Assembly: GCA_947174495.1 (NCBI GenBank)
Contig: CAMWJC010000021.1
Span: forward strand, 1-43,348
Source of the DNA: an uncultured Lachnospiraceae bacterium
GTDB taxonomy: Bacteria; Bacillota; Clostridia; Lachnospirales; Lachnospiraceae
DNA: 43,348 nucleotides
Reading direction: 5' to 3'
In this document: positions 327-39,029 of the stretch, piece after piece
How the letters are laid out: each line of letters opens with the position of its first letter
How positions within the stretch are numbered: position 1 is the stretch's first letter
Notes under the pieces: model-generated
Database searches by the model: none
What the model was told of the DNA's origin: nothing
The model's input: the letters and a program-made list of their open reading frames with translations, nothing else
Position numbers and translations under genes: made by a program

Positions 327-1536
327 GCTGAAAAAGATATTTGTCAAACCTAGTGGAAAAATTGCTCTTTTGCTGCTGGCGGTGCTGCTTGGAGTGACTT
401 GCTGGTTTGCTACTGACATAACATTTATCAATGAACAGGGAAAGCTGGAAACCGGAATCGGGGCAATGCGGAAGCTGCGTTCTGTCGAGAAGGAATGGTC
501 AGGGGAATTGACCGAGGAAAGGCTTGCAGAGGTCATCGCAGAAAATGCAAGAATCAATGCCTTGCCGGGGTACTGGGGAGATGACGGCTGGGCAACGGAT
601 ACCGGGTATGGCTGGAAGCAGGGAATTGACGATATTAATGATATGCTGTGCCGGGCTTTTGGAAAATTCCGGGAATATGATTATCGTATTGTAAATTCCC
701 TGACGCCGGAGGAAGCAGGGCAATTTTATGAAAGGCGTATCCTGCAGCTAAAGGAATGGCTTTCCGGGGATGACGGGGACATTTTTTCGGATAAGGAGAA
801 AGAGTTTCTCATCCATCGTTTTGAAGAATTGGAGACACCTCTTTACTATGACTATATGACCGGCTGGGATCAGCTTTTTGAGTTTGCGCCTACGGTCATT
901 ATGATTACTGTGCTGATTTTGGGATTTCTGGCAGCAGGCATTTTTTCAGGTGAATTTCAGCTTAAGGCGGATGCGGTCTTTTTTTCTTCACGCCATGGAA
1001 GAGATAAAGGAAGCGCGGCAAAACTGGGAGCAGGTCTTGTGATGGTCACAGTGATCTACTGGGTAATGATCCTATTGTATTCGGTGATTGTGCTGGGATA
1101 TCTGGGTGCCGATGGCGAAGACTGTCCGATTCAGATCACCGGGCGGGGCTGGAAAAGCTTTAATAATATCACTATTTTTCAGGAATACCTTCTGATAATA
1201 TTTGGCGGATATCTTGGTGTACTTTTTATGCTGCTTTTGGTGATGCTGGTGTCTGCAAAAGCCAAATCAGCGGTTTTAGCAGTGACTGTGCCCTTTCTGC
1301 TTCTTTTCGTGCCTAACTTCCTGATGAACATTCCTGATCCAATGATTAATAAAATCTGCGGACTATTGCCGGATCAGCTTTTGCAGATGAATATGGTGGT
1401 GGTCTATTATAACCTGTATCAGATTGGTGGAATCGTGACTGACGCAGCTCCGATTTTGATCGTTGTTTATCTGGTTTTGACTGTGATTTTGTGTCCGGTG
1501 ATCTATCAGGTGTATCGGAAGGCGGAGGCAGGGTAA
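313..1536 (+). CDS. ABC-2 family transporter permease
   Basis: A membrane protein of about 407 residues. ATG 313 is preferred over the upstream TTG 289 because AGGTGA lies just upstream and because it overlaps the ATPase gene by 14 bases, as in coupled pairs. One transmembrane segment lies near residues 12-30 (IALLLLAVLLGVTCWF). A soluble region of about 170 residues rich in charged and Trp/Tyr residues follows, then five or so hydrophobic segments to the C-terminus. This layout, with a large outside loop between TM1 and TM2, is typical of ABC-2 permeases that export peptides, lipids or antibiotics. It is the partner of the ATPase before it. Substrate unknown. Confidence 0.8.
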   Translation: MLRYELKKIFVKPSGKIALLLLAVLLGVTCWFATDITFINEQGKLETGIGAMRKLRSVEKEWSGELTEERLAEVIAENARINALPGYWGDDGWATDTGYGWKQGIDDINDMLCRAFGKFREYDYRIVNSLTPEEAGQFYERRILQLKEWLSGDDGDIFSDKEKEFLIHRFEELETPLYYDYMTGWDQLFEFAPTVIMITVLILGFLAAGIFSGEFQLKADAVFFSSRHGRDKGSAAKLGAGLVMVTVIYWVMILLYSVIVLGYLGADGEDCPIQITGRGWKSFNNITIFQEYLLIIFGGYLGVLFMLLLVMLVSAKAKSAVLAVTVPFLLLFVPNFLMNIPDPMINKICGLLPDQLLQMNMVVVYYNLYQIGGIVTDAAPILIVVYLVLTVILCPVIYQVYRKAEAG

Positions 1537-1969
1537 ATTAACGTTTAGCTAGGTAACGGAGATTAATATAAAAACCCGGATAGAATCAAATTCTACGTCA
1601 CCACACTTCCGTTCTACAAAAAGCGTAATGGATGCTAAGCTCGTTAAGAACCTCGCTAAGCACCAACGCTTTTTGAAGGGTTCCTTAAGAATTTGACTTC
1701 TATCCGGGTTAAATTATTGGCTAACGTGAAACCAGCTAATGACTCCACTATAGCCACCTAACCCACTGTCTGGCTATTTTCTAAAGAGTGGAACATTCGA
1801 CTTTAGTGGAGTTCCCAGTTGGGATTTGCATTATTCAATAACCCAGCTCATATAAAAATAAATCCTAAAGGAACCAATTCGCGAACGCTTTATCGAGCGT
1901 GGTGACGTAGGATTTATTTTAATATGAGCGGCCGTCTTGCATACGCATACCCCAGCTAAACGTGATAAT
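1537..1969. repeat. Structured intergenic element A: outer stem enclosing three hairpins
   Basis: About 430 bases with no credible gene. An outer stem joins ACGTTTAGCT (1541-1550) to AGCTAAACGT (1954-1963), extended inward by GGTA..CG against CG..TACC. Inside are three further stems: 1573-1594 with 1687-1710 (22 pairs, one bulged base); 1741-1749 with 1804-1812, enclosing TAGCCA/TGGCTA; and 1846-1865 with 1910-1929 (about 19 pairs). The first and third hairpins carry the same internal-loop core in opposite orientation (ACGTCACC..GGTTCCTT and AAGGAACC..GGTGACGT). The pattern suits a folded RNA or a non-autonomous mobile palindrome. I do not recognise it as a named family. Confidence 0.75.
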
Positions 1970-2079
1970 ATTATCCAGCCCGGTAGCCTTCGCGTTCAAA
2001 CATTTAACTCTTTATTTTATTGCATGAAATGATAAAATTATTATTAAGCCAAGTCAAATTCGGAAGAGGAGGAAGAAGG

Positions 2080-5826: not shown

Positions 5827-5941
5827 TGTGGAAGTAACAGTTCAGCCAATTCACTATAGGATTGGAAAAGTGTATATTCTGGTGACTTATGAATGGGTAT
5901 GGCTGAGCGGTTATGTTTGGAAAGGGAAAATAATCATAGCA

Positions 5942-36778: not shown

Positions 36779-36803
36779 AATATTGGAAAGGGAGGCGGCC
36801 AAG

Positions 36804-37821
36804 GTGCTTAAGGCATATAAATACAGGATCTATCCTAATAAAAAGCAACAAGCCCAAATCGAGAAAACCTTTGACTGCTGCCGTTTTGTCTATAACCGGA
36901 CATTGATGTACCGCAGGGAGATGTACGAAAACTGTGGAGTATTTGTCAGCCGTATGGACTGTAATAATTACCTGAACAGGGAACTGAAGGCAAAGTACAG
37001 CTGGCTGAAAGAGGTGGATAAGTTTGCTCTTACCAATGCGGTCTATCATATGGACAGTGCATATCAGAATTTTTTCAAAAACAGGTCAGGGTATCCACGT
37101 TTTAAAAGCCGATACAGCGAACATAAATCTTATACAACTAATTTTACAAATGGAAATATAGCCATAGATTTTGAAGAGGGAAGGGTGAAGCTGCCAAAGC
37201 TGAAAATGGTCAAAGCAGTCCTTCATAGATTCTTTGAGGGCCAGATCAAGACCGCAACTATTTCCAAAACATCTGATGGAAAATATTACGTATCCATTCT
37301 TGCAGAGACAGCCCATGAAGCAATTCCCCTAAATTTACTCCAGACGGGAGTGGTTTCGCTTAATGGGGATACCAGTGTCCTGTGGGACGAAAAAGAATAT
37401 AAAAGCCTGGAGAGCCTGAGGCGGAAGGAAAGGAGACTGGAAAAATTACAAAGACAGCTTGCCAATAAGGAAAAGGGGAGTAATAATTATTATAAGCAAA
37501 AGAGGAAGATTGCCTTGTGCAGGGAAAGGATAAACAATATCAGCAGAGATTATTGTCATCAGGTTTCCCATGAGATCATCAGCCAAAATCAGGTGATTGT
37601 TTTAGAAAAAAGAAATTCAGCAAAAAATAGCGACCAGACAACGGCAGCAGCGGGCATAGTTTGGTATGAATTGGCAAGGCAGTTGGAATATAAGGCGAAG
37701 TGGAACGGTAGGATTTTACTATAGGGCAGGGACTGCCCGAATTGACGCCTGTGGAGACGGTACGCATGGAAGGTTTTTGACAGTACATAAGGTCGATGAA
37801 GCAGGAAGTCCATCTTTTTGA
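36804..37821 (+). pseudogene. tnpB: Decayed IS200/IS605-type TnpB (RNA-guided nuclease)
   Basis: GTG 36804 has GGGAGG upstream; the open frame runs to 37724 (307 residues). The N-terminal part is normal TnpB (YKYRIYPNKKQQAQIEKTF, CCRFVYNRTL, FFKNRSGYPRFKS). At the RuvC-I position, where VVGLD would carry the first catalytic Asp, it reads VVSLN and the loop is short. RuvC-II keeps its Glu (VIVLEKRNS). After YKAKWNGRILL the frame stops; the zinc finger and RuvC-III Asp are missing. About 10 bases on, in another frame, the normal TnpB tail resumes (GTARIDACGDGTHG..DEAGSPSF, to 37821). It has thus lost an internal block and two of three catalytic Asp. No TnpA gene is present. Confidence 0.85.
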
Positions 37822-37853: not shown

Positions 37854-38720
37854 TTGAAGAGATTATTGGTGACAGGGGCTTCGGGTTTCCTTGGGAGCAG
37901 AATCGTAGAATTTTATAGTGGGAAGTATGAGATTCATGCTCCGTCACATGCTGAAATGGACATTACTGATGGAGGAAGTGTATGTGCAGCATTTGACCGT
38001 TTTCATCCGGATTTTGTGATACACAGCGCTGCTATTTCGGATGTGACAGCGTGTGAAAAAGAACCGGAGAAATCATGGAGGATCAACGTTGATGGGAGCA
38101 GAAATATAGCGGCAGCATCTGCCAGACTTCATGCAAAGTGTTTGCTGTGCAGTTCTGATCAGGTCTATTTTGGGAGCAAGATAAATGATTCACATAGTGA
38201 AGATGAAAGTGTAGAACCAATCAATCTTTATGGGCGGGAGAAAAAGAGGGCAGAGGAAGAATGTCTGAATCAAAATCCGGAATGTGTCCTGCTACGCCTA
38301 TCGTGGATGTATGGTATCAGGACAGTTAACAGGCAGGAACATAATGACTTTTTCCGTACTTTGATTTCCAAATTGGAAGCTTCCGAGACTTTAAGCTATC
38401 CGATATATGATGTACGGGGAATAACGGATGTAAATGAAGTTGTCAGGAACTTCGAAAAAGCATTGGAATTGCCAGGAGGAATCTATAATTTTGGTTCACC
38501 CAATGATAAGAATACCTATGAAACAGCCCTTTCTATGTTTCAGGAGCTTAAGTGGGATGTGAGCCGGCTTAGAAGAAATGAGGAAGCTTTTGCCTCCAAG
38601 CCCAGAAATATTAGTATGAATCTCCAAAAGTTAAATGACAATGGGATTTTCTTTTCGTCAACATTGGAAGCGTTGGTGAGGAATGGGCGCAGATTTCAAA
38701 AGGAAACCTGTTTTAGCTAA
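37854..38720 (+). CDS. RmlD-like NAD(P)-dependent sugar-nucleotide reductase/epimerase
   Basis: 288 residues. TTG 37854 is the start, with GGAGG six bases upstream. The Rossmann glycine motif is TGASGFLGSR near the N-terminus, then HSAAISDVTACEKEP, NVDGSRNIA, CSSDQVY and YGREKKRAEEE (the Y-x-x-x-K pair), as in dTDP-4-dehydrorhamnose reductases. These reduce or epimerise nucleotide sugars for surface polysaccharides. There are no other rhamnose genes nearby, so the substrate is open. Element C follows it directly. Confidence 0.88.
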   Translation: MKRLLVTGASGFLGSRIVEFYSGKYEIHAPSHAEMDITDGGSVCAAFDRFHPDFVIHSAAISDVTACEKEPEKSWRINVDGSRNIAAASARLHAKCLLCSSDQVYFGSKINDSHSEDESVEPINLYGREKKRAEEECLNQNPECVLLRLSWMYGIRTVNRQEHNDFFRTLISKLEASETLSYPIYDVRGITDVNEVVRNFEKALELPGGIYNFGSPNDKNTYETALSMFQELKWDVSRLRRNEEAFASKPRNISMNLQKLNDNGIFFSSTLEALVRNGRRFQKETCFS

Positions 38721-39029
38721 TGCAATACGTTCAAAGTGTAGACAATAGTGGAATGTCTAGTTGTTTAGTTTAAATTGCCAAAACCTAAACTCGTATAAAG
38801 TTTATATTCTTAAGGAGCCATTTCGCGCACGCTTTATCAAGCGTGGCGACGTAGAATATAAACTTTATACGAGTTATTTTTTTCAACCAAACTAAACACA
38901 TTTTATATTAATCTGTCATTTGGGAAGGGAAAATGTATATTTGAATGAGTTTCTATTTCTATCCGAAAGATTTCATATATAATAAAATCACATACAAAAC
39001 ACAGAGCAAAGAAGAAAGAAGGGATGCCG
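38721..39029. repeat. Structured intergenic element C
   Basis: Gene-free. An outer stem joins TGTTTAGTTT (38762-38771) and AAACTAAACA (38889-38898), ten perfect pairs, like the outer stem of element A. It encloses a hairpin whose 23-base arms (38788-38810 and 38853-38875) are perfectly complementary. Between the arms lies the same core as in element A: AAGGAGCC (38812-38819), then ATTTCGCG, a CACGCTT/AAGCGTG stem with a TATC loop, then GGCGACGT (38845-38852). A small TAGACA/TGTCTA hairpin lies at its left. A TATAAT (38978-38983) before the kinase gene is a possible -10 with a weak -35. Confidence 0.75.

Follow-up and report, generated by a model that had tools for sequence, protein, structure and literature searches.

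The window examined here, the whole 43,348-nucleotide stretch of DNA that was analysed from an uncultured Lachnospiraceae bacterium (genome G000; 2.89 Mb, 78.3% complete), contains three hairpins in which a nearly constant core is held by outer stems of differing but self-complementary sequence, and it raises the question of whether they are copies of a structured RNA or of a mobile palindrome. Each of these two outcomes, which the earlier note had set apart, was found in part: outside the genus of the window the conserved fold carries a strand preference, and the hairpins also belong to a mobile palindrome.

The positions, strands and sequences of the three hairpins were confirmed as first described. 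Their outer stems have 22 pairs in hairpin 1, 21 in hairpin 2 and 23 (unbroken) in hairpin 3, so that the first and last of the earlier counts stand and the second, given as about 19, is corrected. Alignment of 37 loci of the same genome, with ends AAATTAACGTTTAGC, identifies hairpins 1 and 2 as the two arms of a single inverted-repeat element of ~430 bp (window ~1535-1969), with a further hairpin between them; the left end of this element overlaps the stop codon of the ORF at 289-1536. Hairpin 3 forms a separate, single-hairpin element, which is bounded by end repeats of its own. The central hairpin of the two-hairpin element (1741-1812) is kept in the aligned own-genome copies. In the features given below, R1 is a covariance model built from 28 other copies with the hairpins of the window excluded, P1 is the outer stem, of 20-25 pairs and variable sequence, and P2 is a helix in which CUUAG faces CUUAG.

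1535-1969, no strand: whole two-hairpin inverted-repeat element (37 own-genome loci aligned, and end repeats)
1535-1553, plus strand: left end repeat of the two-hairpin element, AAATTAACGTTTAGCTAGG (sequence)
1950-1969, minus strand: right end repeat of the two-hairpin element, CCCCAGCTAAACGTGATAAT as plus-strand reading (sequence)
1571-1710, minus strand: hairpin 1 with the full core, i.e., P1, three-way junction, P2 and GNRA hairpin (R1 146.3 bits, E 1.2e-33; fold)
1593-1602, minus strand: core strand of hairpin 1, GGTGACGTAG (sequence)
1607-1610, minus strand: GGAA tetraloop (GNRA) of hairpin 1 (sequence set against the alignment)
1741-1812, no strand: central hairpin between the two arms (sequence and fold)
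1846-1929, plus strand: hairpin 2 with a reduced 43-nt core (R1 43.8 bits at 1844-1933; pattern match)
1901-1910, plus strand: core strand of hairpin 2, GGTGACGTAG (sequence)
38788-38875, plus strand: hairpin 3 with a reduced 43-nt core, single-hairpin element (R1 55.4 bits at 38788-38877)
38845-38854, plus strand: core strand of hairpin 3, GGCGACGTAG (sequence)
38761-38777, plus strand: left end repeat of the single-hairpin element, TTGTTTAGTTTAAATTG (sequence, pairing with the right end)
38884-38900, minus strand: right end repeat of the single-hairpin element (sequence, pairing with the left end)

Run on the window with filters off, R1 placed hairpin 1 (146.3 bits) before hairpin 3 (55.4) and hairpin 2 (43.8), and the next-best matches were the opposite strands of the same three hairpins, at no more than 25.8 bits. 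RNA folding z-scores were -7.9, -7.8 and -9.5 on the core-bearing strand of hairpins 1, 2 and 3, and -8.8, -6.8 and -9.7 on the opposite strand, with 0/200 shuffles equally stable for each hairpin and strand; since the two strands are about equally stable in the window, stability alone cannot name the strand. The motif GGYGACGTAG alone, with one mismatch allowed, matched the window four times, a number reached by 7/100 shuffles and not clearly above chance. The pattern AAGGARCC followed 15-30 nt later by GGYGACGTAG was found 24 times in the own genome against 0 in a reversed-pattern control, and these 24 exact cores are of the reduced type. Two other stretches of the window were recorded: a short inverted-repeat stretch without the core at 5834-5917 (ends GTAACAGTTCAGCC and GGCTGAGCGGTTAT), whose left end is identical with the one seen on core-bearing elements of other genomes, and an ORF at 36783-37724 matching OrfB_IS605 and HTH_OrfB_IS605 (TnpB-like), which lies ~1 kb before hairpin 3 with no link seen.

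The full core, present in hairpin 1 and its relatives, comprises P1, a short inner helix, a three-way junction, P2 and a small GNRA-capped hairpin; the core alone spans ~90 nt, junction included. A GNRA loop was found in 172/179 aligned rows (97/101 of the own genus, 75/78 of other genera), the seven exceptions having a longer hairpin at that place (four) or another tetraloop (three), and CTTR...YTAG-type motifs flank both sides in 98/101 own-genus and 74/78 other-genera rows. As the earlier note had proposed, the fold is conserved with covarying stems. An alignment made by MAFFT without structure (A1), whose structure was predicted from the alignment itself, had 96.1% of cells paired versus 75.1% in shuffles and at most 46.0% in slid versions, with changes on both sides in 38/50 pairs and few one-sided changes; its count of further pair types was not above shuffles (149/500 as high). 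In the other genera, fitted to the model (A4), 95.9% of cells were paired versus 59.4% in shuffles and at most 43.9% in slid versions, and 49/50 pairs had changes on both sides. Covariation is strong, and compensatory changes go beyond both the shuffled and the slid controls. To judge from the alignments, the family-wide constants are the inner junction, the CUUAG/CUUAG helix and the GNRA loop. By contrast, the loop AAGGARCC/GGYGACGTAG, previously taken as the general constant, did not hold in this role, as GGARYC/GRYGAC occurred in 84/101 own-genus rows versus 0/78 rows of other genera; the tandem GA was rejected as a family-wide constant and is a genus-level feature. A scan for GA/GA 2x2 loops found it to be the commonest such loop near that place in other genera (10/78), and gave 0/101 in the own genus because one pair only separates the loop from the next loop there.

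The covariance model search proposed earlier for Lachnospiraceae genomes returned many homologues. The own genome had 55 matches to the full-type model (E up to 0.001) and at least 83 matches to a 439-bp element query, and 27/37 same-genus genomes, the own one included, matched with up to 62 copies each. In a sample of the order, run with stricter filters and eight candidates scored per genome, 53/392 genomes in 28/174 genera matched, all listed in Lachnospiraceae, the family of the window; in a sample of the class, the 8/391 matching genomes were again all of this family. Among the matches listed, at least 116 stretches carried record titles of Lachnospiraceae, [Clostridium] symbiosum and Robinsoniella bins, two of them being titled only bacterium; named records of carriers include Bacterium 1XD8-76, Lachnospiraceae strain 526-35 and IMSAGC_002. 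No match was found for hairpin 3 or for a long perfect copy against plasmids and phages, nor for an exact pattern against viral contigs. Judged from these sequence comparisons, the element is real, family-wide and strongly conserved in structure, and is carried by miniature transposons.

The carriers differ in their end repeats and in the length of the target duplication (8 or 9 bp). Inverted-repeat ends are present on elements in the own genome and genus, and in most of the other genera examined pairing ends at the foot of P1, with G380 as the exception. Elements with CACGGAAATC ends had 9-bp duplications, exact in 6/8 (identity 0.94 versus 0.26 between elements), and those with GTAACAGTTC ends had 8-bp duplications, exact in 8/30 pairings (0.65 versus 0.28 between elements). 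Duplications of 8 bp were also found with GTTACTTTTC ends (2/15; identity 0.51 versus 0.33) and, at an offset of 3, with AGGTAATTGCG ends (2/7; 0.66 versus 0.31), and the window's own end class (29 elements) had no clean target duplication outside the end repeat. Outside the genus, by our count, the copies face outward in 15/16 of the loci that contain at least two. Wide spacing of copies was discarded as a sign of a carried transposase, as the copies at L188 and L198 are separated by other genes.

Shared sites add to this picture. In the near relative G032, the site of the window element at 1535-1969 has the same left end and a folded interior of a second type (L411), which suggests an exchange of interiors between elements. 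This second element type was also observed in the own genome (L080:995-1330, L095 and L111), with the end repeat AAATTAACGTTTAGC and another long, complex folded interior, and L069:1015-1150 of the own genome has the same ends without the core, its two stem arms almost meeting. The place of window 38707-38913, with hairpin 3, is taken in G032 (L410) by ~1.47 kb with another ORF of 327 aa, which by eye we take to be an Rpn-type PD-(D/E)XK nuclease; no empty site was found, G032 being occupied at the places of both elements. Two genomes of different species, G061 and G098, share four places, three of which are nearly identical (140/141, 136/139 and 131/137). At the fourth (L348/L355; 109/133 identical), the core is kept and both P1 arms have changed yet still pair, as if P1 had been replaced as a unit. 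Among 18 lone-end loci read by eye, no autonomous relative with the same ends was recognised, and neither these loci nor a search for recurrence among 484 neighbouring proteins revealed a mobilising gene. The Y1 (HUH) transposase family PF01797 was present in 10/14 carriers and absent from G000, G336, G346 and G178; the last three are 99-100% complete and have at least eight copies each, and the Y1 transposase was rejected as the mobiliser on this ground.

The strand that folds was approached through isolated mismatches in P1, counted after taking the borders from model matches and re-aligning the arms with a neutral score. The 73 arms of other genera had 51 G.T, 20 A.C and 24 other mismatches, and 33 arms favoured G.T against eight that favoured A.C (sign test p 0.0001, with arms that are not all independent, four shared-site pairs being included). 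This excess of G.T over A.C outside the genus suggests that one strand folds alone, namely the GGYGAC strand. The 94 arms of the own genus were near even (20 G.T, 14 A.C and 22 other), and the model-fitted G.T:A.C counts were 76:23 in A4 and 26:26 in A2, the model-fitted own-genus alignment. The even ratio of the own genus is read as youth of the copies, with DNA-level correction of palindromes as the alternative. P2 had no G.T excess, with 8 G.T versus 16 A.C in A4 and 6 versus 32 in A2, 28 of the latter 32 in one column. We consider it reasonably likely that the element is a structured domain of ~140 nt, active in folded, single-stranded form on the GGYGAC strand and most probably as RNA, and that it travels as cargo of inverted-repeat elements. 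Promoter-like sites numbered three in window positions 1480-2060, versus 1.3 expected, which does not amount to evidence of a promoter.

The same folded strand could instead be single-stranded DNA, a hairpin read by a transposase or recombinase in the way that RAYT reads REP/REPIN and the integron integrase reads attC; it would then be a recombination substrate that has no need of transcription. The multi-copy nature of the element, the outward-facing pairs and the lack of strand bias relative to genes agree with such a substrate, and single-strand folding of DNA would likewise favour G.T over A.C. However, the absence of PF01797 from four carriers, three of them near complete, does not suit it, and the target duplications, like the end repeats, speak for ordinary transposases. 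The loops also speak for RNA: in all 172 GNRA-type loops the third base is a purine, and the second can be A, G, C or T, which fits an RNA GNRA loop better than the stable DNA tetraloops. We regard the DNA hairpin as unlikely, and an RNA nature as favoured rather than proven.

A second alternative does away with a functional fold altogether, making the element a plain palindromic transposon whose arms are kept complementary by DNA-level arm copying (quasi-palindrome correction). The near-even G.T and A.C counts of the own genus, the few one-sided changes in A1 and the joint change of both P1 arms at L348/L355 are all expected from arm copying; the G.T excess in P1 of other genera is not, and arm copying leaves unexplained an asymmetric core with short helices and a GNRA loop kept across 28 genera. 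A plain palindrome is accordingly held to be improbable.

With respect to flanking genes, the four orientations were evenly represented in other genera (19/18/17/14 of 68, from crude ORF calls), showing no bias. In the own genus, few copies are in convergent gaps and there is no strand bias, as the 62 cases comprise 25 copies antisense and 19 sense to both flanking genes, with a further 16 and 2 copies in divergent and convergent gaps, respectively. No recurrent partner gene was found, the largest cluster among the 484 neighbouring proteins (200 matches) having 16 members, which we take to be ABC ATPases. Some copies (L309, L349, L350 and L353) directly precede an ATG or separate two genes that run in the same direction. 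Two same-strand copies at L309 (367-506 and 1501-1640) were observed between co-directional genes that look to us like a fatty-acid synthesis operon. These placements, and the precedent of MITE transcripts reported to act on neighbouring genes, e.g., NEMIS in passages of PMC2229807, would suit an RNA acting in cis as regulator, RNase III site or terminator, but cis-regulation was rejected on the missing orientation bias in the 68 other-genera and 62 genus cases, it lacks a strongly recurring neighbour family and any intrinsic terminator (stem then T run; 0 sites in 1480-2060), and it is the least probable of the three alternatives.

Comparison with known systems agrees with the earlier note, which recognised no named RNA family. 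In a cmscan of the window and 41 loci against Rfam 15, nothing on the element reached the gathering cut-off; the best sub-threshold matches on it were plant microRNA hairpins (30.6 of 200 bits at L129 and 23.6 of 150 at L117), and no sub-threshold match that overlaps it is to a bacterial RNA. T-box, TwoAYGGAY, fluoride and L10 leader also matched in these loci, in each case outside the element, and were dismissed. Structured RNAs of Rfam 15 likewise have covarying helices, a GNRA loop and a junction. No description of this element was found in the literature searched. Integron attC sites combine free sequence with fixed structure, as seen here. Correia/NEMIS, RU-1/ERIC and CIR, in the account given in parts of PMC2229807, are bacterial MITEs with folding transcripts and resemble the element in size (100-200 bp or somewhat more), multi-copy nature, inverted-repeat ends, target duplications and a long stem-loop. 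Unlike them, the element keeps an asymmetric multi-helix core across 28/174 sampled genera, and this core sits in elements with differing end repeats and duplication lengths. To our knowledge, none of these MITEs has an asymmetric multi-helix core. REP/REPIN sequences with RAYT, as passages of PMC3733652 describe them, are also small multi-copy hairpins, often in inverted pairs. The element differs from them in its ~140 nt with a three-way junction, in its target duplications and in three near-complete carriers without the Y1 gene. It also has a core of ~90 nt with a junction instead of the simple 20-40-bp hairpin with a GTAG or CGTC tag; GTAG comes after GAC in the window copies, but not in many genus copies.

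These observations are best read as a new structured RNA domain that miniature transposons spread as their cargo; the element probably acts as RNA and is absent from Rfam 15. The hairpins would be copies of one ~140-nt domain acting as the folded single strand that carries GGYGAC, in which P1, 20-25 bp of free sequence, would hold a fixed core of three-way junction, CUUAG/CUUAG helix and GNRA-capped hairpin. The domain may spread as the central cargo of inverted-repeat elements that are non-autonomous, either as a single copy or as an outward-facing pair, and the carriers would be moved by differing transposases supplied from elsewhere. We infer that the domain consists of RNA rather than of single-stranded DNA, that P1 serves as scaffold only and that a protein or RNA partner is bound in trans by the fixed core, the partner and its effect being part of this proposal. 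Docking in trans would make the element a selfish RNA, or one adopted by the host, instead of a switch acting on neighbouring genes. More tentatively, the core might be a transferable selfish RNA module that has several times come to occupy the centre of unrelated miniature transposons and owes its spread to docking on a conserved host protein, as a bacterial counterpart of SINE-like RNAs; the recipients would then be the end classes GTAACAGTTC (8-bp duplications), CACGGAAATC (9-bp duplications), AATTAACGTTTAG and AGGTAATTGCG.

The fixed core in freely varying stems means that the partner could be found with one bait and one mutant. If the element is RNA, it would be a family-wide structured RNA of gut bacteria that is missing from Rfam 15, can reach dozens of copies in a genome and is carried by more than one kind of transposon.
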